NCBI GenBank assembly: GCA_003216795.1
Contig: QCIH01000003.1
Coordinates: 1-64,000, forward strand
DNA length: 64,000 nucleotides
From: Prochlorococcus sp. AG-402-K16
GTDB lineage: Bacteria > Cyanobacteriota > Cyanobacteriia > PCC-6307 > Cyanobiaceae
Direction: 5' to 3'
Shown in pieces: positions 8,069 through 37,689 of this stretch (position 1 is the stretch's first letter; the number at the start of each line of letters is the position of its first letter). The notes below the pieces were generated by a model. That model saw only the letters and a list, made by a program, of their open reading frames with translations. It had not been told where the DNA came from and did no database searches. Both the position numbers and the translations under genes were made by a program.

Positions 8069-11000
8069 TTATAAAATCACGGGATCAACTAAAGCAAATT
8101 CAATATCGCTTTCTGTCCATGTCTCTCCATTCATATTTAAGGTGAGGAATCCTACAGAAGGAGAACTTGCTCCTTGATTCCAATATTGCCATTGAATATT
8201 GGAATCTTCTGTACGAGTGACTTCTAATTGACTTGCATGAGAACTCTTGTGATAGAAAATAATCTTGTCGATACCAGATTCAAAGTCATTGATTTGATGT
8301 TCTGGAGATAATGCACTACCAGTGATTGAATCAGTAGGATTGGCAAGAAACCCAAACACATCTGCTCCTTCTCCACCCCAAAAAGATGAATTGTGATGAG
8401 CAATGAGAGTGTCATCACCGTCACCGCCATAGACCGTGCCATCTGATCCAAGAATAGAATCATTACCCTCACCGGCATAAACAGTGGCAATCCCACCACC
8501 TGCTCGTGAAGAAGAATCATAAAGTGTTCGTGATTCTGTACTGGTCATATCAATGAGATCATCTCCCTTACCGGCATAAAGGGCATTGATATTTTGATAG
8601 CGAGGGGTATAGGACCGACCAAAGGCATCGGTTTGCGTTTCTAATGATCCAAAATAATCGCTGTAAGTATCTTGTAAGAAGTAAGCATCGCCATTGCTTG
8701 AGTCTGTTAAATAGATATCGAGTGTTGGTAGTCGAGTGGGATCTCCTTCTGCCATTACATCAACAATGACATCATGAAAAGAATTTTTACCTTGCACACT
8801 GAACTTGAGGTCAGAGATTTTTCCGTTTTCAAAGGTATAAGTTGATTTGGCACCGTATTTATAAACACCATCGGAGGTGCTGCCCATTTTTAAATCGTCG
8901 GAAATATATGTACTACTGACGGAACTCAAATCAAGATCATTGCTTAACAAGATGGATCGTTCTTCTCTGCCATAGGTTTGCAAACCATTGCCATTAACGT
9001 ATGAACCCGAATCAAAATGAACATAGTCAGCACCACCTTTAGGTTGGGCATAAATCGGTAGATTGGTTGAGGTCTCAGTTGGTTGAGTATTAGAAGTTCC
9101 ACCAGACAATGTCTGTAATTGATTCATATTGATTTCTTCTGATTGATCTATTCCTTGCTCTAATTCTTGAATGACAACTCCAGTACTAGGATCGACTTGA
9201 TTTTCGATTATTCTTATTCCGTCAATAATTATTGAAAGAATAGAAAAACTCGCTTTGCCATCATTTATAGCAGGAATACTGTAACTATCAGTAGTAACTG
9301 TTTCATCAAAACCTTGAGCATCTTGATAGGAAATTACTGCTCTTATAGATTTTCCATCTTCACTCGCTCCCACCGTATAGGTAGAGTCAGTACTGACTTC
9401 ATTCCAACTTAAATTGTCAGATGATGTCTCCCAGCTGTCACTTGAATTTGCATTATATCTAGCTAAATAACTGGTCCCATTGCTGCCTCCAGTAAATAAA
9501 ATCGAACCATCTGATGAGACCGTTAGATCTTGAATAGAGTGTGTATTTATATCTTCAATAGATGAGAACTCTTCTGAACTAATAAGATCTCCCTCTGAAT
9601 TGAATAAAGAGATATATGCATTACCTGCCTGAGTGCTTCCGGTAATATAAATAGAATCATTACCGCCTATCTCAAGTGAACTAACATATGCGCCTGTAAG
9701 TTTTGTCCATTGAATATTTCCACTCGAATCAAATTTACTTATAAAGCCACTGTAGTGATAATCATTAATTTGACCGCCTAGATCACCCGTAGTTCCCCCT
9801 GCAACATAAATAGAACCATCATCACTAATTTTTATCAATTCCGATTCATCATATTTGCTGGAACCAAACATCTGAGTCCACAAGTTTGTTCCATCTGAAT
9901 TGTATTTAGCAATAAAGCCGTTACTACTTCCCTGATTTTCTTGCGCTATTTGTAATCTCTGATCATAAAAAAAAGTACCTTCTGTTCTACCTGTAACGTA
10001 AATAAACCCATCTTTATCAACCGTTATTGCATCGGCCTCATCATATTGATAGCTGTTTATTAATTGGGCCCATTCCTTTGTTCCATCTGAATTGTATTTA
10101 CTAATATGTCCAGCACCTTGATGAGCGTCTCCTGTGCCTAAAATACCTTCTTCTGTATCTCCGGTTACGTAAATAGAACCGTCTTGAGCAACAACAACAC
10201 CCTCTATATCGTCATCAGAGGAACCTCCTAAGAGTTTTGTCCATTTCCTATCACCTGTTGAATCATATTTAATAATGAATCCCTCTCGCGAACCAAAATT
10301 AGGAATCGATTGATCATTAAATTCACGAACACCCCAACCACTCGAATCTTCTCCTCTTGTAGATCCAACAACATAAACGGAACCATCACTACTTATTGAA
10401 ATATCTTCTGCTGAAAACTCCCAATCACCTTCTACCGTTGATTTATCAGTAGCGGATTCTCTCCAGATTTCATTACCGTTAATATCATGTTTGACAAGGA
10501 TTCCAGGTCCTTGAGTTCCGTCTTGATATCCCCAACCATAAATATAATCACCATGAATAGCTAAGCTATAAAGATCTAAGTAATGTCTGCCAGTACCATG
10601 ATTTTCTGACTCTTCTGAATCTAATGTTTTAATCCAGTTTCCCTCAGGATTTCCTCTGAATTCTCCTCCTGAAATATTTCCCACAGAAGGAGGTTCTGAT
10701 GGTGTGGGGGGAACATAAGCATTCGCAGCAGATGTCTCCCAGCTGTCACTTGAATTTGCATTATATCTAGCTAAATAACTGGTCCCATTGCTGCCTCCAG
10801 TAAATAAAATCGAACCATCTGATGAGACCGTTAGATCTTGAATAGAGTGTGTATTTATATCTTCAATAGATGAGAACTCTTCTGAACTAATAAGATCTCC
10901 CTCTGAATTGAATAAAGAGATATATGCATTACCTGCCTGAGTGCTTCCGGTAATATAAATAGAATCATTACCGCCTATCTCAAGTGAACTAACATATGCG

Positions 11001-13264
11001 CCTGTAAGTTTTGTCCATTGAATATTTCCACTCGAATCAAATTTACTTATAAAGCCACTGTAGTGATAATCATTAATTTGACCGCCTAGATCACCCGTAG
11101 TTCCCCCTGCAACATAAATAGAACCATCATCACTAATTTTTATCAATTCCGATTCATCATATTTGCTGGAACCAAACATCTGAGTCCACAAGTTTGTTCC
11201 ATCTGAATTGTATTTAGCAATAAAGCCGTTACTACTTCCCTGATTTTCTTGCGCTATTTGTAATCTCTGATCATAAAAAAAAGTACCTTCTGTTCTACCT
11301 GTAACGTAAATAAACCCATCTTTATCAACCGTTATTGCATCGGCCTCATCATATTGATAGCTGTTTATTAATTGGGCCCATTCCTTTGTTCCATCTGAAT
11401 TGTATTTACTAATATGTCCAGCACCTTGATGAGCGTCTCCTGTGCCTAAAATACCTTCTTCTGTATCTCCGGTTACGTAAATAGAACCGTCTTGAGCAAC
11501 AACAACACCCTCTATATCGTCATCAGAGGAACCTCCTAAGAGTTTTGTCCATTTCCTATCACCTGTTGAATCATATTTAATAATGAATCCCTCTCGCGAA
11601 CCAAAATTAGGAATCGATTGATCATTAAATTCACGAACACCCCAACCACTCGAATCTTCTCCTCTTGTAGATCCAACAACATAAACGGAACCATCACTAC
11701 TTATTGAAATATCTTCTGCTGAAAACTCCCAATCACCTTCTACCGTTGATTTATCAGTAGCGGATTCTCTCCAGATTTCATTACCGTTAATATCATGTTT
11801 GACAAGGATTCCAGGTCCTTGAGTTCCGTCTTGATATCCCCAACCATAAATATAATCACCATGAATAGCTAAGCTATAAAGATCTAAGTAATGTCTGCCA
11901 GTACCATGATTTTCTGACTCTTCTGAATCTAATGTTTTAATCCAGTTTCCCTCAGGATTTCCTCTGAATTCTCCTCCTGAAATATTTCCCACAGAAGGAG
12001 GTTCTGATGGTGTGGGGGGAACATAAGCATTCGCAGCAGATGTCTCCCAGCTGTAATTTAAAGTGCCAGTTCCATCCGGGTCAGCAGAATCTTCAGCAAT
12101 ACTTAAAGTATTCCCAACTGCTGCTGTTCCGGTGATAGAAAAACTGGCATCACCATCATCTACATAAGGAATTGTAGAAATGGAAGTAATAACGGTTTCA
12201 TCAAAACCTTGAGCATCTTGATAAGAAATTACTGCCCTTATAGATTTTCCTTCTTCACTAGCACCTACTGTATAAGTTGCATTTGTTCCAACTGGACTCC
12301 AAGTGGAATTATCTGTAGATGTTTGCCAGCTGTAATTTAAAGTGCCAGTTCCATCCGGGTCAGCAGAATCTTCAGCAATACTTAAAGTATTCCCAACTGC
12401 TGCTGTTCCGGTGATAGAAAAACTGGCATCACCATCATCTACATAAGGAATACTAGAGGTAGAAGTAGTTACTGTTTCATCAAAACCTTGAGCATCTTGA
12501 TAGGAAATTACTGCTCTTATAGATTTTCCTGCTTCACTTGCTCCTACTGTATAAGTTGCATTTGTTCCGACGACACTCCAGTTGGAATTATCTGTAGATG
12601 TTTGCCAGCTATAACTTAAAGTTCCTGTACCGTCAGGGTCAGCAGAATCTTCACTAATACCTAAAGTATTTCCGACTGCTGCAGTTCCAATTATTGAAAA
12701 ACTTGCATCTCCTGAGTCAACTCTTAGATTATCAAAATAACTATATGCTCCTCTTCCATAACGCCAGTTTGCACCAACTCTAATGGTTAAAGAATGTGTA
12801 CCTATATCAAGGAGTTTTGATCCCCCCATAGACCAACCCCATAATTGCCCTTCTCTGGCAGCCGTGCCATGACCATCTAAATTTTCACCATTAACTAATA
12901 AATTATGGTTTATACCATATTTATTTTCTAAGAATGTAGCTGCATAAGCAAAATTATCTACATTAAAAACATAGGTCCCTTCTTCACTAACATTAAATTC
13001 TTGAGTTAAGTCTATATATTGGTATTCATTACTATCCCCATTGTCATATCCATATATTTGAAGAGCGGATCCATCTATTTCAGGCGAACCATAAGATAAA
13101 TAATTTGAATTATCGATGTAACTAAGCGCATTTGTATAATCTGGCTCTACAATTTCATATCCTTCATAACTTACGGTTGAATTAGATGTTGTTAATGTCC
13201 AACCAGAAAGATCATTGAAATCTTTATTGTTAATTTGAATCTTTGATGATGGAGTAGACACCAT
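8069..13264 (-). CDS. RTX-type secreted modular protein with Ig-like repeats and a duplicated SBBP-type beta-propeller module (1731 aa)
   Basis: It starts at ATG 13264 with no signal peptide. Residues about 1-185 are a beta-rich domain ending in YFDNLRVDSG. Then come 93-residue Ig-like repeats (AAVGNTLSIAEDSADPDG, TYTVGASE, IRAVISYQDAQGFDETV). A 436-residue module appears twice, identically, at about residues 406-1278. It is built of SBBP-like propeller repeats (DGSIYVTG, KYNSDGT.W). The interrupted Ig-like repeat then resumes. The C-terminal part carries RTX-type glycine-rich calcium motifs (YAGKGDDLI, YAGEGNDSI, YGGDGDDTL, WGGEGADVF) and a serralysin-like tail. This fits a type I secretion substrate acting at or beyond the cell surface. 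No secretion genes are seen nearby. GC is higher than in the polysaccharide region. The ligand is unknown. Confidence 0.88.
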   Translation of the reverse strand: MVSTPSSKIQINNKDFNDLSGWTLTTSNSTVSYEGYEIVEPDYTNALSYIDNSNYLSYGSPEIDGSALQIYGYDNGDSNEYQYIDLTQEFNVSEEGTYVFNVDNFAYAATFLENKYGINHNLLVNGENLDGHGTAAREGQLWGWSMGGSKLLDIGTHSLTIRVGANWRYGRGAYSYFDNLRVDSGDASFSIIGTAAVGNTLGISEDSADPDGTGTLSYSWQTSTDNSNWSVVGTNATYTVGASEAGKSIRAVISYQDAQGFDETVTTSTSSIPYVDDGDASFSITGTAAVGNTLSIAEDSADPDGTGTLNYSWQTSTDNSTWSPVGTNATYTVGASEEGKSIRAVISYQDAQGFDETVITSISTIPYVDDGDASFSITGTAAVGNTLSIAEDSADPDGTGTLNYSWETSAANAYVPPTPSEPPSVGNISGGEFRGNPEGNWIKTLDSEESENHGTGRHYLDLYSLAIHGDYIYGWGYQDGTQGPGILVKHDINGNEIWRESATDKSTVEGDWEFSAEDISISSDGSVYVVGSTRGEDSSGWGVREFNDQSIPNFGSREGFIIKYDSTGDRKWTKLLGGSSDDDIEGVVVAQDGSIYVTGDTEEGILGTGDAHQGAGHISKYNSDGTKEWAQLINSYQYDEADAITVDKDGFIYVTGRTEGTFFYDQRLQIAQENQGSSNGFIAKYNSDGTNLWTQMFGSSKYDESELIKISDDGSIYVAGGTTGDLGGQINDYHYSGFISKFDSSGNIQWTKLTGAYVSSLEIGGNDSIYITGSTQAGNAYISLFNSEGDLISSEEFSSIEDINTHSIQDLTVSSDGSILFTGGSNGTSYLARYNANSSDSWETSAANAYVPPTPSEPPSVGNISGGEFRGNPEGNWIKTLDSEESENHGTGRHYLDLYSLAIHGDYIYGWGYQDGTQGPGILVKHDINGNEIWRESATDKSTVEGDWEFSAEDISISSDGSVYVVGSTRGEDSSGWGVREFNDQSIPNFGSREGFIIKYDSTGDRKWTKLLGGSSDDDIEGVVVAQDGSIYVTGDTEEGILGTGDAHQGAGHISKYNSDGTKEWAQLINSYQYDEADAITVDKDGFIYVTGRTEGTFFYDQRLQIAQENQGSSNGFIAKYNSDGTNLWTQMFGSSKYDESELIKISDDGSIYVAGGTTGDLGGQINDYHYSGFISKFDSSGNIQWTKLTGAYVSSLEIGGNDSIYITGSTQAGNAYISLFNSEGDLISSEEFSSIEDINTHSIQDLTVSSDGSILFTGGSNGTSYLARYNANSSDSWETSSDNLSWNEVSTDSTYTVGASEDGKSIRAVISYQDAQGFDETVTTDSYSIPAINDGKASFSILSIIIDGIRIIENQVDPSTGVVIQELEQGIDQSEEINMNQLQTLSGGTSNTQPTETSTNLPIYAQPKGGADYVHFDSGSYVNGNGLQTYGREERSILLSNDLDLSSVSSTYISDDLKMGSTSDGVYKYGAKSTYTFENGKISDLKFSVQGKNSFHDVIVDVMAEGDPTRLPTLDIYLTDSSNGDAYFLQDTYSDYFGSLETQTDAFGRSYTPRYQNINALYAGKGDDLIDMTSTESRTLYDSSSRAGGGIATVYAGEGNDSILGSDGTVYGGDGDDTLIAHHNSSFWGGEGADVFGFLANPTDSITGSALSPEHQINDFESGIDKIIFYHKSSHASQLEVTRTEDSNIQWQYWNQGASSPSVGFLTLNMNGETWTESDIEFALVDPVIL
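9424..12055 (-). repeat. Exact-looking tandem duplication, unit 1308 bp (436 codons)
   Basis: Sequence from about 9424 is repeated with a 1308-base offset from about 10732 to about 12040. The word gatgtctcccagctgt occurs at the start, the junction and the end. The two translated copies are identical along all 436 residues, and every DNA stretch I compared matched. The unit is a multiple of three, so the frame is kept. The event is either very recent, under active gene conversion, or an assembly product. Confidence 0.9.
12050..12720 (-). repeat. Tandem 279-bp (93-codon) Ig-like coding repeats
   Basis: The segment encoding AAVGNTL recurs near 12112, 12391 and 12670, a period of 279 bases. The copies are nearly identical in DNA. 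A fourth unit is split: its first strand ends at YSWETS, then the two propeller modules intervene, and the rest (NLSWNEVS to QGFDETVTT) lies at about 9280-9425. Confidence 0.85.
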
Positions 13265-18535: not shown

Positions 18536-19534
18536 ATGAAAATATATTTTTTACTAGAATTTGGTTTGAATCATGGTTTAGGTCATCTGGCAAGATGTTC
18601 TAATTTAGCTAATCATTTAAAAAAGATTAGTATTGAATCTGGATTAATAACTACTTTTAATTCTTTTGATAAGCATAAAAAAAATATTGAGTCAGAGCTT
18701 TTAAAACCCTTTGCTCATGATATAAACTACTTCACAAGTTTAGAAGATCAAAATCAAGCAAATTTTGAAAATATATTCTTTAAAATAAATAAAATAATTT
18801 CAAATAATATCTTGATTATTGATCATTATTATTTATCTAGACAGTTTGTCAAAAAACTAAAAAATTTTAAATTTATTTTTCATTTTAAGGATGATATCAA
18901 TGATATAGATATTTTGGAAAATAATAATTATAAGCACAAGATAATTTACTTTTTGCCAAATGAGATTATTCAAAAAAGGTATGGGTCCCTACAAAAAAAT
19001 ATATTTTCAGGAATAGAGCTTTTCCCATTATTTCCCCCCGAATTGAAATTTAAAAAGCCTGAAATTTTTGATAATCAAAAATTTAATATTTTTATTGCGC
19101 CTGGTTCGAATTTTACAGAACTTTTCAATCAGATTATTTTAAAAACTAATAATTTTGCAAAAAATAATAACTTTAAAATATTTCTACCTATAAAGTTAGA
19201 TTTTGGATTAAAAAATATATTCTATGTTGACGGAAGCAAAGGATTTCAAAATTATATCTATTATTCAGATTTAGTTATTTGCGCTGCTGGTAATGTAATG
19301 TTAGAAACACTTTATTTTAAATATAAAATAATTGCCTACTCCACTAATGATAATCAAATTACTTTAATTAATTATTTGGAAGAAAGAAATAGAGTTTTCA
19401 ATTTAAAAAATATAGATTTGCTTTCAGAAGAATTAATATTGAATTATTCATTTCATAATAAGCAATTTCTAAGAAATCAAAACCAAATTAATTTTAATTG
19501 TGATAAGCTCCTAGATATTATTTTTAATAAATAA
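18536..19534 (+). CDS. pseG: PseG-like UDP-sugar hydrolase (pseudaminic acid pathway)
   Basis: The 332-residue GT-B-fold protein has the PseG pattern. HGLGHLARCSNLA near the N-terminus corresponds to the catalytic G-x-G-H-x-x-R motif. IIDHYYLS matches the D-H/Y motif, and a C-terminal CAAGNVMLETLYFKYKIIAY followed by TNDNQ matches the UDP-binding region. PseG removes UDP from the UDP-2,4-diamino-trideoxy-altrose intermediate to give the free sugar condensed by PseI. It is the first gene of a tight plus-strand operon, with pseI beginning 7 bases after its stop. Sequence is diverged, so a related glycosyltransferase cannot be excluded, but the order PseG-PseI-x-PseF argues for the pathway role. 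Confidence 0.7.
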   Translation: MKIYFLLEFGLNHGLGHLARCSNLANHLKKISIESGLITTFNSFDKHKKNIESELLKPFAHDINYFTSLEDQNQANFENIFFKINKIISNNILIIDHYYLSRQFVKKLKNFKFIFHFKDDINDIDILENNNYKHKIIYFLPNEIIQKRYGSLQKNIFSGIELFPLFPPELKFKKPEIFDNQKFNIFIAPGSNFTELFNQIILKTNNFAKNNNFKIFLPIKLDFGLKNIFYVDGSKGFQNYIYYSDLVICAAGNVMLETLYFKYKIIAYSTNDNQITLINYLEERNRVFNLKNIDLLSEELILNYSFHNKQFLRNQNQINFNCDKLLDIIFNK

Positions 19535-19541
19535 TTATTTT

Positions 19542-20582
19542 ATGTATTCTTTTAATAATTTAAAGGAAAGTCCTTATATAATTGCAGAATTATCCTCTAA
19601 TCATTCAAATAAACTTGAAATTGCTTTGAAAACTATTGAAGCAGCTTCAAGAGCTGGAGCAAATGCTATAAAAACTCAACTATTTAAACCAACTTCTTTA
19701 GCTCTTCCAGACCGCTCTAAATCCCAGAGAATTGAAGATCCTAATAGTCCATGGAATGGTTCATTGTTATTTGATCTTTATGATGAAGCAGCATTACCTT
19801 ATGATTGGTATCCAAAATTAATAAAATGTGCTGAGGAAAATTCAATAGATATTTTCTCTTCTGTATTCGATATTGAATCTGTAGATTACTTAAAAAAATT
19901 TAAATTTCCTTTAGTTAAGATATCTTCATTTGAATTAGTACATATTCCACTTCTTGAATACGTAAAAAAAACAAATATACCAACAATAGTATCAACTGGA
20001 ATGGCTACTATTGATGAAGTAGATAAATGTGTAAATATTTTTGGTAAGGATTCTGATAAATTGTGTTTATTAAAATGCACTAGTGATTATCCTACTAGCT
20101 TAGATTCAACTAACTTAGGCCAAATGATATCCTTAAAAGAAAGGTACGGATTAACAGTCGGATTGTCTGACCATTCAATGTCTAATATCCCAGCAATAGT
20201 TGCTACTACTCTTGGAGCTAATATTATTGAAAAACATTTTATTCTTAATAAATCTATTAAAAGTCCTGATGCATTTTTTTCTCTAGATGAGAAAGAATTT
20301 AAAAATTTAGTTAATGATATTAGATCTACTAAAAGTATGCTTAAAAATAAAAAACTAGAGGAATTAAGACAGGATGTTGAGGATCATAGCTTGTGGGAAA
20401 GACCATCTATTTACTATTCCAAGAATTTAAAAAAAGGGGATCCAATAAATGCTGAAAGTTTAATAATAAGGAGACCTTCACTTGGATTAGATCCTATTAA
20501 TTTTAATGAAATAATAGGCAAAATACTAAAATCTAATGTAACAAAATATCAACCAACAAAATTCGATGATTTTTATAAATAG
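19542..20582 (+). CDS. pseI: Pseudaminic acid synthase-like (PseI)
   Basis: The 346-residue product has the NeuB/PseI TIM barrel. PYIIAELSSNHS at the N-terminus, AGANAIKTQLF, IFSSVFDIESVDYL, KISSFELVHIPLL, STGMATIDEVD, LKCTSDYPT, VGLSDHS and NIIEKHF are the phosphoenolpyruvate- and metal-site motifs in family order. A C-terminal SAF (antifreeze-like) domain spans about residues 285-346. Wording such as SSNHS and FDxxxVDxL is closer to PseI than to sialic acid synthase. It should condense a 2,4-diamino-2,4,6-trideoxy-L-altrose derivative with PEP. It lies between the PseG-like gene and the amidinotransferase-like gene. Confidence 0.85.
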   Translation: MYSFNNLKESPYIIAELSSNHSNKLEIALKTIEAASRAGANAIKTQLFKPTSLALPDRSKSQRIEDPNSPWNGSLLFDLYDEAALPYDWYPKLIKCAEENSIDIFSSVFDIESVDYLKKFKFPLVKISSFELVHIPLLEYVKKTNIPTIVSTGMATIDEVDKCVNIFGKDSDKLCLLKCTSDYPTSLDSTNLGQMISLKERYGLTVGLSDHSMSNIPAIVATTLGANIIEKHFILNKSIKSPDAFFSLDEKEFKNLVNDIRSTKSMLKNKKLEELRQDVEDHSLWERPSIYYSKNLKKGDPINAESLIIRRPSLGLDPINFNEIIGKILKSNVTKYQPTKFDDFYK

Positions 20583-20634
20583 TTGCTTTGATAAGATTTT
20601 AGAAAACTATTTAAATGATAAAAGTATTATATAA

Positions 20635-21801
20635 ATGTTTAAAGTATCTTCATTTGATGAGTTCACTAAATTAAAAACAGTAATATTAGGAACTTTTGAT
20701 AAGAAAATTTTACCTTTAGAAAGTCAAGATCCCAACGCAAACTTATCAGAAGGATTAAAAATTCTTGAGAAAGCCTATCCTCAATGGTACGTTGATGAAG
20801 TAAATGAAGATATAGAGGAATTTAAAAAAGTATTAGAAAAAAATAATGTTAAAGTTTTAAGACCTAAATGGCCTTTTTTAGATTCAACTTTCAGAAGTCC
20901 AAATTGGATTACAAATGGTTATGACATTTATAATGTTAGAGATAACCAAATTATATTTGGGAACAAAATAATAAATACTCCTCCCTCATCAAGGTTTAGG
21001 CAAAGTGAATATTATGCTTTTTATGAAATATTTAAAGACTTACAAACAAATTCTGAAGCAACTTGGATTAGCGTTCCAAAACCTTCTTTACCGAAAGGTT
21101 TTTCTTTGCCACTTAATAAAAAACCAACTGATTTAGAATTAAAGGAAAATGAAAAACATGAAAAACTAAGTGATGGATTAACTGAAAATCTAACTTATTT
21201 AATTGATTCGGAAATTATATTTGATGCTGCAAATATTATAAGAATAGGTAAAGATATACTATATTTAGTCTCGAGCACGGGCAACATCTCAGGCTATAAA
21301 TGGTTGAAAAATTATCTAGGCAATAACTATAAAATCCATTTGACACAAACTTATAGATCAAGTCATCTTGATTCAACAATCTGTCCTTTGGCGCCTGGAT
21401 TGGTTTTATTAAATGGTGATAGGGTTGATGAAAGGACAGTTCCTGATTTTTTTAAAAATTGGGACAAGATTTACTTCTCTGATGTTTCTCCTATCCCAGA
21501 GAAAGAAATTGATTTTTTTAAGAATATAAGAGAACCTATATCTAAAAGGCTTAAAGAGCTATCTTTTCAAAGTCCAATATCTTATATCAGTTCGCCATGG
21601 GGAGGGCTTAATGTATTTTCAATTTCTGAAGATACTTTATGTGTTGAGAAATCACAAATAAAATTAATAAAAAAACTTGAAGAATATAAATTAAATGTAA
21701 TACCTGTTAGCTATAGACATTTTTATACTATGTTAGGTTGTCTACATTGCTCAACTTTAGATTTAGAGAGGGAAGGTGGATTAATAGATTATTCTAATTA
21801 A
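20635..21801 (+). CDS. Amidinotransferase (arginine:glycine amidinotransferase/StrB1-like) in the pse operon
   Basis: The 388-residue length fits the amidinotransferase family. FDAANIIRIG (Asp197), SSHLDSTICPLAPGL (His244) and MLGCLHCSTLDLEREG (Cys372) correspond to the Asp, His and nucleophilic Cys of L-arginine:glycine amidinotransferase, and PDFFKNWD is also family-typical. These enzymes move an amidino group from arginine to a primary amine, giving a guanidine. It is embedded between PseI- and PseF-like genes, and the next gene starts at the base after its stop, so the acceptor is probably an amino sugar. Arginine deiminase is less likely because the pattern follows AGAT. The acceptor is inferred. 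Confidence 0.8.
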   Translation: MFKVSSFDEFTKLKTVILGTFDKKILPLESQDPNANLSEGLKILEKAYPQWYVDEVNEDIEEFKKVLEKNNVKVLRPKWPFLDSTFRSPNWITNGYDIYNVRDNQIIFGNKIINTPPSSRFRQSEYYAFYEIFKDLQTNSEATWISVPKPSLPKGFSLPLNKKPTDLELKENEKHEKLSDGLTENLTYLIDSEIIFDAANIIRIGKDILYLVSSTGNISGYKWLKNYLGNNYKIHLTQTYRSSHLDSTICPLAPGLVLLNGDRVDERTVPDFFKNWDKIYFSDVSPIPEKEIDFFKNIREPISKRLKELSFQSPISYISSPWGGLNVFSISEDTLCVEKSQIKLIKKLEEYKLNVIPVSYRHFYTMLGCLHCSTLDLEREGGLIDYSN

Positions 21802-22536
21802 ATGAACTTAATTATTATTCAAAGCAGAAATGGATCAACTAGATTACCCTTTAAATCAGTTTTATCATTATCAGGATATCCAACTTTATTACATATATTA
21901 AATCGCTTAAAAAAATTAGAAACTAACAATAAGATAATAGTAGCCACTTCTATTAATAATGAAGATGATATTATAGAGGATATTTGCCAACTAAATAATA
22001 CTTGCTGTTTTAGAGGCCACCCCACAAATGTTTTAAGTAGATTTCAATTTTTATCAAAAAAATATAATCCCGAATATATTACAAGAATTACAGGAGATTG
22101 CCCATTAATCAATCCTGATATAATACTTCAGTTATTAGAAAAAATTAATAAGACAAATGTTGATTATGCAACTAATACAATTAAAAGAACTTATCCTCAT
22201 GGCTTTGATGTGGAAATATTCAAAGCTTCAATAATAAACAAAGTAAAAAAACCGACTCTTGATGATAAAGAGCATGTTACACCTTTTATTTATAATTCAA
22301 ATAAATTTAAAATTTTTTCTCAAGAAGAAGATATAGATAACTCATCTTATAGAGTTACATTGGATACGAAATATGATTATTTTTTCATAAATAAATTAAT
22401 CAAAAAAACTTTCTTAAAAACTAATAATTTTTTTGAGACATTAAACTCAGAAGATATTGTTAACTTAATTTTGTCAGATAATCAATTAATGGATATGCAC
22501 AATATTGCAAAAATAAAAAGTAAATTTTCTTATTAG
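21802..22536 (+). CDS. pseF: CMP-nonulosonate cytidylyltransferase-like (PseF/SpsF family)
   Basis: The 244-residue nucleotidyltransferase begins IIIQSRNGSTRLPFKSVL, the SpsF/PseF version of the nucleotide-binding loop. ITRITGDCPLINPDII holds the metal-binding D-C-P-L motif, and SYRVTLDTKYDYF is a conserved C-terminal segment of this family. It should activate the nonulosonic acid with CTP. It starts directly after the amidinotransferase stop, indicating translational coupling. As last gene of the operon it converges on the oxygenase gene at 22612. Confidence 0.78.
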   Translation: MNLIIIQSRNGSTRLPFKSVLSLSGYPTLLHILNRLKKLETNNKIIVATSINNEDDIIEDICQLNNTCCFRGHPTNVLSRFQFLSKKYNPEYITRITGDCPLINPDIILQLLEKINKTNVDYATNTIKRTYPHGFDVEIFKASIINKVKKPTLDDKEHVTPFIYNSNKFKIFSQEEDIDNSSYRVTLDTKYDYFFINKLIKKTFLKTNNFFETLNSEDIVNLILSDNQLMDMHNIAKIKSKFSY

Positions 22537-23738: not shown

Positions 23739-24437
23739 ATGGAATATTTAGAAAAAAATAATTTATATTGGCAAGGTAAATACTATGCCCCCAATGTAGA
23801 AAATTTCATATTTAGAATGTATGGAAGAATCTTAAAGTTTGATTATGGAATTGATGGTAGTCAGGGTGAATCCGTATTTGATTTTGGAATGGGTCAAGGG
23901 GGTAATTTAAATTTCTTTCATCAGCTTGGATTTAATGTATTTGGTGTAGACATAGCAAGAAATGATATAGAGATTGCAAAAAAAATAATGCCAGAAAAGG
24001 CTGATCAATTTAAAGTTATTTCACCGCAGCCTGAACCAGAATTAAAATTTTTCCCTGAATTTTTTAACTCTCCTGAGGACGGTTTTGATATAGTAATTAG
24101 TATTCAAACATTCTCTTTTTTATCTAATACTGATTCTAATAAGGCCATAAAATGCATCTATAATCAAATGAAACCAGGTGCAAAGATATATGTGTCTTGG
24201 TGCGGCGAAAATCATTACTATAAGAATCACGCTACACCTTTAGGTGATGGACTTTGGGAGGTAAAATTTAATAATGGTAGAGTCGACTATGACTTAAGGT
24301 ATAATTTTGTGAAAAATAAAGATGATCTTAAAGAAAAGTTCAAACTCTTTAAACCAATATATTTAGATCATTATGATGCTTCCTTTAGAGAGGAAGGAAG
24401 CGAGTTTAGATATACCTTCTTTGGAATTAAAGAATAG
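23739..24437 (+). CDS. Class I SAM-dependent methyltransferase
   Basis: The 232-residue product has VFDFGMGQGGNLNFF (motif I), GVDIARNDIEIAK (post I acidic residue), DGFDIVISIQTFSFL (motif II-III) and MKPGAKIYVSW (beta 5 region). This is the usual small-molecule methyltransferase order. The N-terminal WQGKYYAPNVENFI is typical of sugar-cluster methyltransferases I have seen in such islands, but the substrate cannot be read. It stands alone between two minus-strand genes. Confidence 0.72.
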   Translation: MEYLEKNNLYWQGKYYAPNVENFIFRMYGRILKFDYGIDGSQGESVFDFGMGQGGNLNFFHQLGFNVFGVDIARNDIEIAKKIMPEKADQFKVISPQPEPELKFFPEFFNSPEDGFDIVISIQTFSFLSNTDSNKAIKCIYNQMKPGAKIYVSWCGENHYYKNHATPLGDGLWEVKFNNGRVDYDLRYNFVKNKDDLKEKFKLFKPIYLDHYDASFREEGSEFRYTFFGIKE

Positions 24438-29416: not shown

Positions 29417-30649
29417 ATGAATTCTATAAAAATTTTTTTAGAGAAGTTAATAAGAACAAAAGAAAAAAAATATATACCTTATGGAAAACATGCAATAAAT
29501 AAAAGAGATATTATATCAGTAGTGAAAGTACTTAAAAGTAATTTTATAACCCAAGGCCCTAAGGTTGAAAAGTTTGAAAAAGAAATATGTAAAAAATTAG
29601 ATGTTAATTTCTCAGTTGCTACAAATAGTGCTACCAGCGCATTACACATAGCTTGTTTATCTTTAGGCCTTCAAAAAGGAGATATAGTTTGGACAAGCCC
29701 AATAACTTTTGTGGCTTCTGCAAATTGCGCACTATATTGTCAAGCAGAAATAGATTTTGTTGATATTGATATTAAAAATGGATTGATAAGCATATGTGAG
29801 CTGGAAAAAAAGTTAGAACATGCACAAAGTATAGGGAAACTTCCAAAAATATTAATACCAGTTCATTTGGCAGGTACTTCTTGTGATATGCATAAAATAA
29901 AACAACTTTCTGAAATCTATAAATTTAAAGTAATAGAAGATGCAAGTCATTCTATTGGTGGAAAATTTTTTGGATCTTATATCGGAAATTGTAAGTACAG
30001 TGATATTACTGTTTTTAGTTTTCATCCAGTAAAAATTATCACAACGGGAGAAGGAGGAATTGCTACAACTAATAATCTAGAAATTTTTGAAAAAATGGGA
30101 AAGTTAAGAAGTCATGGAATAGAGAAAAATATCAACAAACTAGAAAATAAATCTAATGATAAACCTTGGCTTTATGAACAACAAATACTAGGTTTTAATT
30201 ACCGAATGAACGATATTGAAGCGGCATTAGGATTAAGTCAATTAAAGAGATTGGATAATATAGTAAAAAAAAGAAATGATATAAGAAAGTTTTACTTGAA
30301 GGAATTACATAATCTTCCTGTAAAGGTCCTAGAAGTTGAACCTAATATTTTATCGTCAGTACATTTATTAGTAATAGTTTTAGATAAAGAATATAGGAAA
30401 TATCATTCAGAAATTTTTAATTTTTTAAAAAATAAAAATATAGGAGTTCAATTACATTATATTCCTGTTCATTCTCATCCTTACTACAAAAAACTAGGTT
30501 TTAAGATTGGAGATTTTCCAGTATCAGAGGAATATGCAAATAGTGCGATAACTTTACCTCTTTTCCCTGAATTAAATAAAAGACAAGTAAAGAAAATTAT
30601 AGAAATATTAAAGTTTGAAATTAATAAAATTGGTTCAAATTTTATTTAA
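29417..30649 (+). CDS. pseC: UDP-4-amino-4,6-dideoxy-N-acetyl-beta-L-altrosamine transaminase-like (PseC)
   Basis: The 410-residue DegT/DnrJ/EryC1 aminotransferase has the PseC wording: IPYGKHAINKRDI at the N-terminus, NFITQGPKVEKFE, NSATSALHIACL, WTSPITFVASANCALY, EDASHSIGG and TVFSFHPVKIITTGEGG, in which Lys206 binds PLP. It should aminate the 4-keto product of PseB (36670), giving a free amine at C4. It is separated from pseB by 6 kb and from pseI by 9 kb, so the pathway is scattered. An N-terminal extension of about 18 basic residues precedes the usual start, and no better start is seen. Confidence 0.85.
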   Translation: MNSIKIFLEKLIRTKEKKYIPYGKHAINKRDIISVVKVLKSNFITQGPKVEKFEKEICKKLDVNFSVATNSATSALHIACLSLGLQKGDIVWTSPITFVASANCALYCQAEIDFVDIDIKNGLISICELEKKLEHAQSIGKLPKILIPVHLAGTSCDMHKIKQLSEIYKFKVIEDASHSIGGKFFGSYIGNCKYSDITVFSFHPVKIITTGEGGIATTNNLEIFEKMGKLRSHGIEKNINKLENKSNDKPWLYEQQILGFNYRMNDIEAALGLSQLKRLDNIVKKRNDIRKFYLKELHNLPVKVLEVEPNILSSVHLLVIVLDKEYRKYHSEIFNFLKNKNIGVQLHYIPVHSHPYYKKLGFKIGDFPVSEEYANSAITLPLFPELNKRQVKKIIEILKFEINKIGSNFI

Positions 30650-30746: not shown

Positions 30747-31733
30747 ATGACAATTAAGGTAATCGCAGAACTATGTCAGAATCATAATGGTGATAAAGAT
30801 ATTTTAATTAATATGATTCATGAAGCATCCAATGCTGGTGCTACTCATGTAAAAATTCAACATATTAAACCAGAGTATTTAAATTTCCGTCCTAGGCATG
30901 AGAATGGCATATTTATAAGAGAAAAACAAAAATCCTTTAAAAGGCCATTTAAAGAGGAATACAATAGGTTATCAAAACTTTCATTGAATGATGATTTGAT
31001 AAGCCTATTTATAGAAACTTGTATTAGTAAAAAAGTAATACCATTAACGACATGTTTCATAAGAGCTGATATAGAAAATATTATTAATCAAGGTTTTAAA
31101 GAGATAAAAGTTGCAAGTTATGATTGTTCTTCATACCAAATGCTAAGGGAGTTATCGCCAAGATTTGATCATATTTATGTCTCTACAGGAGCAACTTATG
31201 ATAGAGAAGTAATTTATGCTTCTTCTATTTTAAAAAAATATGCAAAAAATTTTAGTTTAATGCAATGTACGACAATATATCCAACACTGATAAGTCAAAT
31301 AAATCTCGATAGATTAAAGTTTTTGAATAATTTAACGGAAAATTTTGGATTCTCCGATCATTCTTCATCTGAGAAGGAACCTTTAATAGCCTCTAAACTT
31401 GCTTTATTTCATGGAGCAAAAATTATTGAAAGACATTTTACGATTTTAAAAAGCAATCAAACCAAAGATGGGCCAGTATCTATAAATCCTTCTGAATTAA
31501 ATGAGCTTGTTCTATTTTCTAAATTAAATAAAGAAGATCAATTAAATGATCTCAAAAAGATTAATATTAATCCTTATGAATTTGTTACAAATACATATAT
31601 AGATAAGGGTCTTAGCGAGGTTGAATTATTAAATAGAGATTATTATAAAGGTAGATTCGTTTCTCCTATAATTCGTGAAGATATTTATCCTAAAGAGTAT
31701 GTAACTAATTGTGAGGAAACGCCCTTAAATTAA
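30747..31733 (+). CDS. Second NeuB-family synthase-like protein
   Basis: The 328-residue product has IAELCQNHNGD, AGATHVKIQH, VIPLTTCF, IKVASYDCSSYQML, YVSTGAT, LMQCTTIYPT, GFSDHSSS and IIERHF. This is the NeuB TIM-barrel set but with changed residues relative to the PseI-like paralogue at 19542. The C-terminal part after residue 280 is short and does not show a clear SAF domain. It is the first of four tightly packed plus-strand genes. It may use a different sugar substrate, or have drifted to another PEP-condensing step. Confidence 0.75.
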   Translation: MTIKVIAELCQNHNGDKDILINMIHEASNAGATHVKIQHIKPEYLNFRPRHENGIFIREKQKSFKRPFKEEYNRLSKLSLNDDLISLFIETCISKKVIPLTTCFIRADIENIINQGFKEIKVASYDCSSYQMLRELSPRFDHIYVSTGATYDREVIYASSILKKYAKNFSLMQCTTIYPTLISQINLDRLKFLNNLTENFGFSDHSSSEKEPLIASKLALFHGAKIIERHFTILKSNQTKDGPVSINPSELNELVLFSKLNKEDQLNDLKKININPYEFVTNTYIDKGLSEVELLNRDYYKGRFVSPIIREDIYPKEYVTNCEETPLN

Positions 31734-33434
31734 ATGGATTATATAGAAATAACTGAAACTTGTCTTTTAAAAGATGCTCTAAATTTAATGTCCAAAAATA
31801 ATAAAATTTTTGGGATGGCTGTAGTTGTGGATGATCAAAAAAAATTTAAAGGTGTTTTGACTTTAGGTGATCTTACAAAGGCTATAAGCAATAATGTATC
31901 AATAGAAAATTTAGTTAAAGATTCCTATAACAAAAATTCAATTTTTTATGAGGATCCAATATCAGATAAAGAAATAATTGATGATTTATTGTCAAAAATA
32001 AACCAAAAATTCATAAAAAGGATACCAAGATATGTACCAATTATTGTTAAAGATAAAGTTGATAGATTATTTAATACCTATGAGTATCTTTTAAATAACC
32101 ATGAAACAAAAGGAACAGTTTGTATTTTAGGTTTGGGATTTGTTGGGCTAACTCTAGCTTTATCTCTTTCAAAAAAATCAAAATTAGTCATTGGATATGA
32201 TATTGATAAAAATCTTGTACAATCCCTCGCACAGGGTAAGAGTCATGTTAATGAGCCTCGAATTAATTCATTATTAAAAGAAAATCTAGAGAATAAAAAA
32301 CTTGTTATAACTAATGATATTTCTAAAGAAGTTGATATAAATCAATTTATTATTTGTGTAGGAACTCCAATTAAGAAAGATAATATGCCTAATAATAAAC
32401 CATTGGAAAGTTGCTTGAATTTTTTAGGCAACAAGTTAAAAAAAGGTAATTTAGTAATTGTTAGGTCTACAGTTAGTATTGGTACAACAAGAAATATTAT
32501 CATTCCACAATTAGAAAAAATATCAAAATTAAAAGCAGGAAAGGATTTCTTTATATCCTTTAGTCCTGAAAGAACTGTTCAAGGAGATGCCTTATTCGAG
32601 CTTGAGAATCTTCCTCAATTGGTTTCAGGTTACACTGATAAATGTCTTTTAGAATCTTTGAAATTTTGGAGAAAAGTCAATAATTCTGTAATTAAGTTGG
32701 ATTCTCTTGAAGCTGCTGAAATAGCGAAATTGGCAAATAATACTTATAGGGATCTTACATTTGCTTTTGCAAATGGTCTTTCTCAAATTTGTGATAGTTA
32801 TCAGATTGATGCAAGATCTCTTATTAGTTTAATAAATGAGGGTTATGAAAGAAGTAATATACCTCAACCAAGTCCTGGAGTAGGCGGCTATTGTTTAAGT
32901 AAAGATCCTTATATTTTATCTTCTTCAAAATCATGTCCTAATTATTTTCGGGATTTAATAGATAAAAGTAGAAAAACCAATGATTTACAAATTAAATTTT
33001 TAATTCAAAGCTTGAATTATTTTGTTAAAAATAAAAATTTAGATATTTCAAAATTAAATATATTAATTATTGGAATTGCATTTAAGGGAAAACCAATAAC
33101 AAATGATATAAGATTTTCCCCCTCTATTGATCTTCTTAATGAGTTAAAAATTCATAATAGTAATATTTATGGATTCGATTCGGCTTTAGAGCAAGATATT
33201 AAAATTGATGGTTTAAACATTATTCATAATTCAGTGGAGTTTTACGAAAGAATAAAAGTATCAAATGCAATCTTTATAATGAACAATAATGAAAATAATA
33301 TTCCTGAAGAATTTTTTGAAAACATTTCACCAGGTTCTTTTATAAGTGATCCATGGCATATGTTTAGAGAATCTGATATAGCTACTTTAAAAAAAGTTAC
33401 TTATTCTACTTTAGGCAGAATAATTAATTTGTAA
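31734..33434 (+). CDS. CBS-domain pair fused to a UDP-GlcNAc/ManNAc-type nucleotide-sugar dehydrogenase
   Basis: The 566-residue product has two parts. Residues 1-120 resemble a CBS pair (TCLLKDALNLM, GVLTLGDLTKAI). From about 127 a nucleotide-sugar 6-dehydrogenase follows: VCILGLGFVGLTLALSL (NAD fold), FIICVGTPI, RSTVSIGTT, FSPERTVQGDA, EIAKLANNTYRDLTFAFANG, SPGVGGYCLSKDPYIL with the catalytic Cys, and GIAFKGKPITNDIR. The last motifs fit the WecC/TviB side of the family. It starts directly after the NeuB-like stop. CBS domains usually sense adenosine nucleotides. This fusion is unusual, since CBS in sialic-type clusters normally precedes a nucleotidyltransferase. Confidence 0.82.
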   Translation: MDYIEITETCLLKDALNLMSKNNKIFGMAVVVDDQKKFKGVLTLGDLTKAISNNVSIENLVKDSYNKNSIFYEDPISDKEIIDDLLSKINQKFIKRIPRYVPIIVKDKVDRLFNTYEYLLNNHETKGTVCILGLGFVGLTLALSLSKKSKLVIGYDIDKNLVQSLAQGKSHVNEPRINSLLKENLENKKLVITNDISKEVDINQFIICVGTPIKKDNMPNNKPLESCLNFLGNKLKKGNLVIVRSTVSIGTTRNIIIPQLEKISKLKAGKDFFISFSPERTVQGDALFELENLPQLVSGYTDKCLLESLKFWRKVNNSVIKLDSLEAAEIAKLANNTYRDLTFAFANGLSQICDSYQIDARSLISLINEGYERSNIPQPSPGVGGYCLSKDPYILSSSKSCPNYFRDLIDKSRKTNDLQIKFLIQSLNYFVKNKNLDISKLNILIIGIAFKGKPITNDIRFSPSIDLLNELKIHNSNIYGFDSALEQDIKIDGLNIIHNSVEFYERIKVSNAIFIMNNNENNIPEEFFENISPGSFISDPWHMFRESDIATLKKVTYSTLGRIINL

Positions 33435-34469
33435 ATGAATGATTTAAAAAATATCGCTTTTTTTGTCTGTCCTAATGGTTTAGGTCATCTAAGAAGATCA
33501 ATAGCAATTATTAAAAATATTATTAAAATTAAAAATGTAAAAGTTAAGTTATTTGTATCTAAATCAAAAAAAAATTCATGTTTAATTGATTTTTTTAAAA
33601 GATTACCAAGAACAGAGATTTGTTTTTTTTATTTACCCCATCCGGCTTACGATAAAAATGAATATGAATATTCAGAAGTCATAAAAAATCTAAAACCTCT
33701 ATTAAAAGATATAGATGTTCTTATAAGCGATAATTTGATTTATCCACTTTCAGCATTGGATATTCAAAATAAATTTTGCATAGCACAATTTTTTTGGCAT
33801 GATTTATTGATATTAGATAAACTGTCGAAAAATAATAGAGAAATTGTTGATTTTGAAATTGCATCTCTAGAAAGAAACAAATTTGTAATATATGGATCAA
33901 ATCTATTTTCTATGCCAGCTGTATCAAATCATAAATTATTTAAGCCTGTAGAACTTTTCGAAAATCCCTTGTTTAGAAAACCATTAAAAGTAAAAAAAAG
34001 AAAAGGAGTTTTAATAACTGATGGGACAACAAAATTTAGTAGAGATTATTTAAATAAAATTACTCCTGACATAATTGAAATTTCTTTGAATTATGGTTTA
34101 GATGTTTTTATTTCACCAAGACTTTCAAATAAAAATAACTTTCATAAAGTTCATAAATTTGACTATACATCAAAAGATTTTTCTAAAATTCTAGTCGGTA
34201 TATGTAGACCAGGACTTGGAATTATATCAGATTTATTGTACTCAGGAGCAATACCTATTCCTTGTTTTTCAGAGGTAAATGCTGAAATGGAATTCAATAA
34301 AGAACAAATAAATAAATTGTTTGGTTTTGAATCAAGTAAAAATATAAATTTTCACTTGGAGACTGCTATTAAAAATTTTGCAAATTTACAAATTGTATCT
34401 AGAAATATTAAATTTATTGGTGGATATCAAATTAAAGATGATTTAATGAAAAGAATCAATGTAAAATAA
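33435..34469 (+). CDS. GT-B-type glycosyltransferase or PseG-like hydrolase
   Basis: The 344-residue product starts FFVCPNGLGHLRRSIAI, like the MurG/PseG glycine-rich loop with G-H-x-x-R. The C-terminal half has ILVGICRPGLGIISDLLYSG and EVNAEMEFNKEQIN, resembling the nucleotide-diphosphate site of GT-B enzymes. It begins right after the dehydrogenase stop, so it belongs to the second nonulosonate-like operon. It may be the hydrolase partner of the second NeuB-like enzyme, or a transferase. The two cannot be separated from sequence alone. Confidence 0.55.
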   Translation: MNDLKNIAFFVCPNGLGHLRRSIAIIKNIIKIKNVKVKLFVSKSKKNSCLIDFFKRLPRTEICFFYLPHPAYDKNEYEYSEVIKNLKPLLKDIDVLISDNLIYPLSALDIQNKFCIAQFFWHDLLILDKLSKNNREIVDFEIASLERNKFVIYGSNLFSMPAVSNHKLFKPVELFENPLFRKPLKVKKRKGVLITDGTTKFSRDYLNKITPDIIEISLNYGLDVFISPRLSNKNNFHKVHKFDYTSKDFSKILVGICRPGLGIISDLLYSGAIPIPCFSEVNAEMEFNKEQINKLFGFESSKNINFHLETAIKNFANLQIVSRNIKFIGGYQIKDDLMKRINVK

Positions 34470-34474
34470 AGATT

Positions 34475-35179
34475 ATGGATGTTGGTGATTCAATTAATGC
34501 AAAGAATGCAAAATGGACTTTTGATGGAGATGTTGTTGATAGTTTCGAAGCTCATGTAAGTAAATCTGTTCCATTATATAACCAAGGACATGAGTTAATT
34601 TTAGAGATATCTGATTATTTTATTAAAAATGACTCTATTTCTTATGAGCTAGGCACATCTACAGGCATTTTATCTTATAAACTCTCAGAGAGATTTGGAA
34701 GTGATTTTGGTGAATTTATTGGCTTGGATGTAGTTGATAATATGATTAAATATGCAAAAAAAAATTATAAAAATAAGAACCTAAATTTTGAAGTAGCTGA
34801 TGTAATTGAATATGATTATAAAAATGCAGATTTTTTTATAAGTTATTATTTATTGCAATTTATTAGGCCAAGTCAAAGACAATTATTAGTTAATAAAATA
34901 TATGAGAATTTAAATTGGGGAGGTGCTTTTATTTGTTTTGAAAAAGTTAGAGCACCTGATGCAAGATTCCAAGATATATCTACAGGTTTATATAATGAAT
35001 TTAAAATAAAAAAAGGATATTCTTTTGATGCAATTTTGTCAAAAACAAGAAGTTTAAAAGGTGTTTTAGAACCATTCTCTACAAGCGGAAATATTGAGAT
35101 GTTTCAAAGGGCAGGATTCAAAGATATTTTATCAATTTTTAAATACATTACTTTTGAAGGCTTTTTGTGTATTAAATGA
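34475..35179 (+). CDS. CmoA-like SAM-dependent methyltransferase
   Basis: The 234-residue product has YELGTSTGILSYKLSE (motif I), FIGLDVVDNMIKYAKKN (post I), DFFISYYLLQFIRPSQRQ and KIYENLNWGGAFICFEK. The L-Q-F-x-x-P-x-x-R-x-x-L-L segment is strongly like CmoA. The real substrate in this context is probably a sugar or carboxylated intermediate rather than tRNA, but that is inference. It is the last gene of the four-gene operon that starts at 30747. Confidence 0.7.
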   Translation: MDVGDSINAKNAKWTFDGDVVDSFEAHVSKSVPLYNQGHELILEISDYFIKNDSISYELGTSTGILSYKLSERFGSDFGEFIGLDVVDNMIKYAKKNYKNKNLNFEVADVIEYDYKNADFFISYYLLQFIRPSQRQLLVNKIYENLNWGGAFICFEKVRAPDARFQDISTGLYNEFKIKKGYSFDAILSKTRSLKGVLEPFSTSGNIEMFQRAGFKDILSIFKYITFEGFLCIK

Positions 35180-36669: not shown

Positions 36670-37689
36670 ATGAACTCAGATAAATATGAATCAATCTTAA
36701 TAACAGGTGCAACTGGAAGTTTTGGTAAGAATTTTGTTAATTTTATATTGCACCACGCTAAGGAGTTTAAAAGAGTTGTTGTATTCAGCAGGGATGAGTT
36801 AAAACAATGGCAAATGCAATCAAAATTTTCCACATCAAAATATCCACAAATAAGATATTTTCTAGGAGATATTAGAGACAAATCCAGGGTTTACAGAGCT
36901 TTGGAGGGAATTGATGTTGTTGTACATGCTGCAGCACTTAAACAAGTACCAGCTTCAGAATATAATCCTCATGAATTTATTAAGACTAATATAATAGGAT
37001 CTCAAAATTTAATTGAAGCCTCTTTAGACAAGAATGTAAAAAAATTAGTCGCATTAAGTACAGATAAAGCTTCTTCGCCTATTAATTTGTATGGCGCAAC
37101 AAAACTGTGTTCAGATAAATTATTTATTGCTGCTAATAATATAAGCGGTAAAAATAAAATCAAATTTTCAGTTGTTAGGTATGGCAATGTAATAGGCTCT
37201 AGAGGATCAGTTATACCATTCTTTTTGAAAACAGCAAATAGTGGAGAATTACCTATTACACATAAAAAAATGACTCGATTTAATATTACTTTAGATGAGG
37301 GTATAAAAATGGTTTATGAATCAATTTATAATTCTTTTGGAGGGGAAATTTTTGTGCCAAAAATTCCAAGTTATAAGATTCTTGATGTAGCAATGGCAAT
37401 TGCCCCAAATGCGTTACATAAAATAGTTGGAATCCGTTCGGGAGAGAAAATTCATGAAGAGATGATTAATTCATATGATTCAAGTTTTACATATGATTTG
37501 GGAAATAAATATGTAATTATGCCTAAAATTGATAGTGTTCTACAAAGATATAAAGAGAGTGATATTAAATTTAAAAACGTAAAAGAGAATTTTTGTTATA
37601 ACTCTGGTTCTAATGAAAAATTCTTGAGCGTTGAAGAAATTAGAAAATTAATAAAAACACATGTAGATCCAAAATTTGTTCCTTTTTAG
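36670..37689 (+). CDS. pseB: UDP-N-acetylglucosamine 4,6-dehydratase (inverting), PseB-like
   Basis: The 339-residue extended SDR enzyme has ILITGATGSFGKNFVNFIL (NAD fold), VVVFSRDELKQWQM, RYFLGDIRDKSRVYRAL, VVHAAALKQVPASEYNP and ALSTDKASSPINLYGATK with the Y-x-x-x-K pair. A-A-L-K-Q-V-P and S-T-D-K-A are hallmarks of the PseB/FlaA1 group. It makes UDP-2-acetamido-2,6-dideoxy-beta-L-arabino-hexos-4-ulose, the substrate of PseC. It stands alone with its own upstream spacer. Confidence 0.9.
   Translation: MNSDKYESILITGATGSFGKNFVNFILHHAKEFKRVVVFSRDELKQWQMQSKFSTSKYPQIRYFLGDIRDKSRVYRALEGIDVVVHAAALKQVPASEYNPHEFIKTNIIGSQNLIEASLDKNVKKLVALSTDKASSPINLYGATKLCSDKLFIAANNISGKNKIKFSVVRYGNVIGSRGSVIPFFLKTANSGELPITHKKMTRFNITLDEGIKMVYESIYNSFGGEIFVPKIPSYKILDVAMAIAPNALHKIVGIRSGEKIHEEMINSYDSSFTYDLGNKYVIMPKIDSVLQRYKESDIKFKNVKENFCYNSGSNEKFLSVEEIRKLIKTHVDPKFVPF

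Follow-up and report, generated by a model that had tools for sequence, protein, structure and literature searches.

We propose that a surface-polysaccharide region of a Prochlorococcus genome encodes a variant pseudaminic-acid pathway, in which the PseC-derived amine receives an amidino group from an L-arginine amidinotransferase (AGAT) instead of an acetyl group from PseH. The product would be 7-guanidino pseudaminic acid (5-acetamido-7-guanidino nonulosonate), perhaps N-methylated. We consider this proposal probable, in the absence of any activity or product data. A guanidino-nonulosonate was the central claim of the original prediction, and it is supported by the lack of PseH, by an intact AGAT site and an intact amine supply from PseB and PseC, and by the occurrence of AGAT (with a methyltransferase) and PseH as alternatives. 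The acceptor and the product are inferred.

The pathway genes and their setting

The stretch of DNA analysed (the window) covers the initial 64 kb of a contig of 160 kb, from a 1.67 Mb genome that is 92.5% complete, is split over 51 contigs and has named Prochlorococcus records among its genus-level relatives. Surface-polysaccharide genes are abundant throughout the window and for roughly 25 kb beyond it on the contig. Absences reported for the source genome come from targeted searches. The comparison sample comprised 292 genomes drawn from the phylum, 266 from the genus and 84,980 species genomes, the last covered in one scan.

A four-gene operon had been predicted at 18536-22536, and all four open reading frames are found there on the plus strand, separated by gaps of 7, 52 and 0 bases (Table 1). 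The names proposed for its products fared less evenly. That of PseI is favoured: the protein scores just below the TIGR03586 cut-off (336.4 against 340.25 bits) and reaches 258 bits with the sialic-acid model NeuB_NnaB, it is matched by the solved PseI 8h2c (E 7e-72), and in the alignment it carries, as KISSFE, the Phe of the KI[AS]SFE motif, a mark of Pse-type synthases (PMC7371886). The PseG-like label is justified for the N-terminal half only, the score being far below the TIGR03590 cut-off of 153.55 bits. The PseF label has to be dropped, as the cytidylyltransferase has a CTP_transf_3 domain and no match to the PseF model TIGR03584; nor did tblastn with the PseF of genome G821 (see below) find a homologue in the window. 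PseB and PseC, placed elsewhere in the window by the same prediction, are indeed there and pass their curated cut-offs. The prediction overlooked a methyltransferase gene, which we count as a member of the set because its product is 61% identical to the AGAT-adjacent methyltransferase of G821. This protein also has a weak likeness to phosphoethanolamine N-methyltransferases.

Table 1. Genes of the window assigned to the proposed pathway
Feature	Position	Strand	Evidence
PseG-like UDP-sugar hydrolase	18536..19534	+	TIGR03590, 52 bits over aa 1-127, N-terminal half only
PseI, pseudaminic-type nonulosonate synthase (NeuB + SAF)	19542..20582	+	PF03102, SAF, TIGR03586
AGAT-fold L-arginine amidinotransferase (predicted)	20635..21801	+	StrB1 1bwd, E 4e-50; AlphaFold model; insertion; tree
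Cytidylyltransferase, probable CMP-nonulosonate synthase	21802..22536	+	PF02348 (CTP_transf_3), 97 bits
SAM methyltransferase, partner of Pse-type AGATs	23739..24437	+	61-62% identical to AGAT neighbours in G821/G876
PseC, predicted source of free C4 amine	29417..30649	+	TIGR03588, 506 bits against cut-off 423.5, passes
PseB, UDP-GlcNAc 4,6-dehydratase (inverting)	36670..37689	+	TIGR03589, 497 bits against cut-off 407.75, passes

In the proposed route, PseB and PseC would convert UDP-GlcNAc to UDP-4-amino-4,6-dideoxy-AltNAc, and the AGAT would transfer the amidino group of L-arginine to the C4 amine, releasing ornithine and leaving a 4-guanidino sugar. The PseG-like enzyme would then take off UDP, PseI would join the sugar to phosphoenolpyruvate, yielding 5-acetamido-7-guanidino nonulosonic acid, and activation by the cytidylyltransferase would prepare this product for incorporation into surface polysaccharide. 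The partner methyltransferase would probably methylate the product, possibly at the guanidine as in creatine synthesis. This order of steps is an inference. The gene content resembles the pseudaminic pathway of Campylobacter and Helicobacter (PseB-PseC-PseH-PseG-PseI-PseF) in having PseB, PseC, a PseG-like protein, PseI and a CMP-sugar synthase. It differs in that the window has an amidinotransferase and no PseH, and a cytidylyltransferase outside the PseF family (in G821 it is a PseF).

Several observations count against this explanation. Neither the PseG-like protein nor PseI reaches its cut-off, the former by a wide margin and the latter narrowly. PseB and PseC are 7-15 kb away from the operon, with other sugar genes around them, and PseC could serve a second NeuB-like gene of the island, at 30747-31733. 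That gene lacks a SAF domain and the Pse-type Phe, for which reason we rejected it as an obvious partner of PseC. It begins a stretch adjoining PseC, 30747-34469 (+), that continues with a fusion of a CBS domain to a nucleotide-sugar dehydrogenase, followed by a GT-B/PseG-like protein. This stretch may encode a second nonulosonate-like pathway.

Other features of the island were also recorded. A third NeuB-like gene, L033:4850-5953 (-) (C3 about 68850-69953), adjoins HAD-hydrolase and carbohydrate-kinase-like genes. A CmoA-like methyltransferase (134 bits, under the cut-off) is encoded within the polysaccharide cluster at 34475-35179 (+). At 8069-13264 (-) lies a gene for a repeat-rich protein of 1731 aa with two head-to-tail copies of 1308 bases, identical at every base; the copies either arose very recently by duplication or are an artefact of the assembly.

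The amidinotransferase

No Pfam or NCBIfam family matches the putative AGAT above its cut-off. PF02274 (arginine deiminase/amidinotransferase) remains under its own, so that by Pfam alone the protein would be called unknown. Its best solved relatives by sequence are StrB1, SxtG, HsvA and human AGAT, and a profile built from 16 sequences places StrB1 clearly first (366 bits; others at most 276). An AlphaFold2 model (pLDDT 88) has 1bwd as its top structural match and gives Z scores of 43, 41, 40 and 39 for four amidinotransferases, against about 27 for the best arginine deiminase. The Cys372/His244/Asp197 set named in the original prediction does match the AGAT site: C372 (HCST), H244 (SSHLDST) and D197 (FDAAN) all occupy the catalytic pentein positions, and D103 and R122 are conserved as well. 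Judged by these residues, by whole-chain similarity and by the predicted fold, the protein is a member of the L-arginine amidinotransferase family; that it transfers an amidino group to an amine is inferred.

StrB1, the inosamine-phosphate amidinotransferase of streptomycin synthesis, is thus the nearest solved enzyme in fold, catalytic residues and overall similarity. Its acceptor is a ring amine on a phosphorylated aminocyclitol. By analogy, this primary amine, bound to the ring of a phosphorylated, sugar-like molecule, may be the same kind of acceptor as the one predicted for the window enzyme. StrB1 differs in its aminoglycoside setting, as opposed to the nonulosonate setting found here, and in lacking an insertion of about 22 residues (about aa 285-306) that is modelled in the window AGAT as a helix spanning aa 289-308.

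Absence of PseH

The predicted lack of PseH extends from the window to the whole of the 92.5%-complete genome, in which the best match to the PseH model TIGR03585 reaches 39 bits against a cut-off of 93.1. This match is identified as RimI, whose model it passes (92.1 against a cut-off of 86.4), and lies between clpC and a lysA-like gene. It is one of four PF00583 GNATs in the genome; the other three lie outside the island, among unrelated neighbours, and have no PseH match. Acetyltransf_3 (PF13302) and PglD_N gave zero matches in the assembly. Within the window and the 40 kb that follow, we found no relatives of PseH, PIG-L, NodB or formyltransferases, and over that same interval only, tblastn with the PseA of loci L063 and L009 and the HisF of L009 returned nothing at E 0.01.

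Since the genome is incomplete, a PseH could lie in one of its gaps, for this genome alone. The step could also be carried out by an unrecognised acetyltransferase, with four GNATs on hand, and in either case the AGAT would make an extra change elsewhere on the sugar. We regard this as very unlikely. The four GNATs are accounted for by RimI and by genes in unrelated surroundings, no relative of the deacetylases and formyltransferases searched for lies in the window or the 40 kb beyond it, and two closed genomes with the same gene set also lack PseH.

Exchange of AGAT and PseH between congeners

The first of these closed genomes, G821, belongs to a different cyanobacterial family and has the closest AGAT among the 292 phylum genomes (52% identical). 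Around it lie PseB, PseC, PseF, PseG, PseI and a methyltransferase, with the methyltransferase and AGAT adjoining PseI. All five Pse proteins pass their equivalog models (PseB 512.9, PseC 573.6, PseF 309.5, PseG 167 and PseI 412.7 bits), and no PseH was found in the genome, the best match being 29.7 bits. The second, G876, repeats this arrangement of AGAT and methyltransferase without PseH. Their congener G872 has no AGAT match. Its PseB, PseC and PseF are 89-96% identical to those of G821 and keep their order. In the interval whose flanking genes it shares with G876, it carries PseG, a formyltransferase-like gene, a PseH (166 bits), a PIG-L deacetylase and PseI. PseH in G872 and the methyltransferase-AGAT pair in G876 are therefore alternatives at one chromosomal locus. 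The proposed route is not unique to the window's genome.

Other arrangements were also seen. G877 has the formyltransferase/PIG-L form without PseH. In Prochlorococcus relatives that have PseI and no AGAT, the gene found near PseI encodes a GNAT in G141 and a formyltransferase in G232. We infer that the substituent on the PseC-derived nitrogen is a variable slot. A PIG-L deacetylase and a formyltransferase also stand beside PseI in several cyanobacterial Pse clusters (L072:6697-9209, L073:6566-9511, and L061 and L063 before PseI), which suggests N-formyl variants of pseudaminic acid.

Comparing AGAT-type with PseH-type loci within the genus of G821 (g85), PseB and PseC are 94-96% identical and PseG and PseI only 28% and 48%. 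PseG and PseI thus changed along with AGAT, and what was exchanged could be a whole cassette of other specificity. Among PseI residues not otherwise shared, the window protein has 17 in common with G821/G876 and 5 with G872/G877; several of the 17 are in the C-terminal domain and close to the Phe that marks Pse-type enzymes. It also shares 15 exclusive residues with the PseI set of Prochlorococcus. The divergence and the shared residues suggest, weakly and from sequence comparison only, that PseG and PseI may handle an already amidinated sugar. Simple inheritance of PseI along with AGAT was rejected, as a grouping of the window with G821/G876 appeared in only 8% of bootstrap trees for PseI and is not recovered in its tree.

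The same comparison bears on the point at which amidination would occur. AGAT might act late, on the free or CMP-activated nonulosonate with a free 7-amine and not on the UDP-sugar. Its gene adjoins that of the cytidylyltransferase in the window, and the Campylobacter acetamidino variants are assumed to arise by late modification of the diacetylated compound (PMC7371886). We think such timing unlikely, given that PseG and PseI have diverged while PseB and PseC were kept, as if the former two saw a changed sugar; but PseF, which acts later still, does not follow this pattern and is conserved between the AGAT and PseH forms.

A clade of putative nonulosonate amidinotransferases

The scan of species genomes returned 12 full-length AGAT relatives, 36-43% identical, spread over SAR11, other proteobacteria, a spirochaete, Prochlorococcus and Patescibacteria. 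A NeuB homologue lies within 10 kb at 9 of the 12 loci, a NodB-like deacetylase is a neighbour at all 12 and a large methyltransferase at 8; at viral-contig AGAT loci, none of these three was nearby in any of 23. In a maximum-likelihood tree the AGATs of the window, G821 and G876 form a clade (100/99) that is sister to a branch found mostly in legionaminic-type (Leg-type) clusters of several phyla, and the Pse-type and Leg-type enzymes together form a 100/99 clade. The insertion is common to all members of this joint clade and missing from the aligned viral-contig (n=8), StrB1-like and other outgroup AGATs. Leg-type enzymes have Glu at the position of D197.

These neighbours bear on whether AGAT acts on the nonulosonate at all. 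Known AGAT acceptors are diverse (glycine, a polyamine for HsvA, a saxitoxin precursor for SxtG and an aminocyclitol for StrB1), and the enzyme could make an unrelated guanidino compound, derived for instance from a polysaccharide-decorating amine or amino acid, with the nonulosonate keeping a free amine or another acyl group. This seems to us improbable to a greater degree than late amidination, as it explains neither the exchange of PseH and AGAT between G872 and G821/G876 nor the NeuB homologues at the sister-branch loci.

Returning to amidination of the nonulosonate, both branches probably follow one logic, with the free amine resulting from the absence of PseH in the Pse branch and probably from a deacetylase in the Leg branch. 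A broader proposal is that bacteria from cyanobacteria, SAR11 and other proteobacteria to spirochaetes and Patescibacteria make a whole class of guanidinylated nonulosonic acids with one amidinotransferase clade: AGAT would replace PseH on the PseC amine in the Pse branch, a NodB-like deacetylase would free the amine in the Leg branch, and methyltransferases would N-methylate the guanidine to give creatine-like sugars. We put this forward only tentatively and would not yet expect it to hold in full. Within the genus, 3 of 266 genomes, including the window's, have an AGAT homologue. The other two proteins (43% identical) are of the Leg-type branch with no NeuB within about 16 kb, and therefore provide no test of the Pse proposal.

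PseA/WbpG-like amidotransferases with HisH/HisF-like genes occur at L009:9578-12097, L018:12205-14745 and L063:15151-17707. In L018 this known amidine route lies near the Leg-type AGAT, and in L009 the two share a genome region. Separately, an AGAT of the viral-contig branch was seen in a cyanobacterial assembly (G343, L015:1492-2550 (-)) beside small 2OG-oxygenase-like genes; that contig may be phage DNA.

Discussion

Two known systems offer partial parallels to the predicted sugar. The PseA route to Pse5Ac7Am likewise places a basic, amidine-type group on a nonulosonate nitrogen, but it relies on an unrelated amidotransferase and yields an acetamidino product, as against the guanidino product predicted here; no PseA or HisF homologue was found in the window or the following 40 kb. 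Creatine synthesis also pairs an amidinotransferase with a SAM methyltransferase (AGAT with guanidinoacetate methyltransferase, GAMT). There the parallel is limited by the predicted sugar acceptor and by a window methyltransferase whose likeness to GAMT and action on guanidine are both unproven.

As to novelty, we found no paper in the open-access literature on an amidinotransferase or guanidino route to nonulosonic or pseudaminic acid; subscription papers were outside the search. The part of a 2007 survey of cyanobacterial arginine enzymes that was available gives no amidinotransferase for Prochlorococcus strains and discusses a different protein (PMC2242806).

The +42 shift proposed as a diagnostic cannot serve at nominal mass, where amidino and acetyl groups are indistinguishable. 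The gains are 42.0218 Da for guanidino and 42.0106 Da for acetyl formation, a difference of 0.0112 Da, so nominal-mass spectrometry would miss the guanidino group and routine assignments may have hidden it. Calculated [M+H]+ values of the DMB derivatives are 451.1823 for the acetyl, 451.1936 for the guanidino and 465.2092 for the N-methylguanidino form. Because two closed genomes from a distant cyanobacterium show this replacement of PseH by AGAT too, the predicted sugar could represent a real but overlooked class of compounds. The AGAT enzyme set provides a genomic marker for finding more guanidino-sugar loci, and the proposal can be tested biochemically in a direct and simple way. Acidity and neutral acyl groups are the norm among sialic-acid-like sugars. 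A guanidine would make these nonulosonates zwitterionic, and could alter how phages, grazers and lectins recognise some very abundant ocean bacteria.
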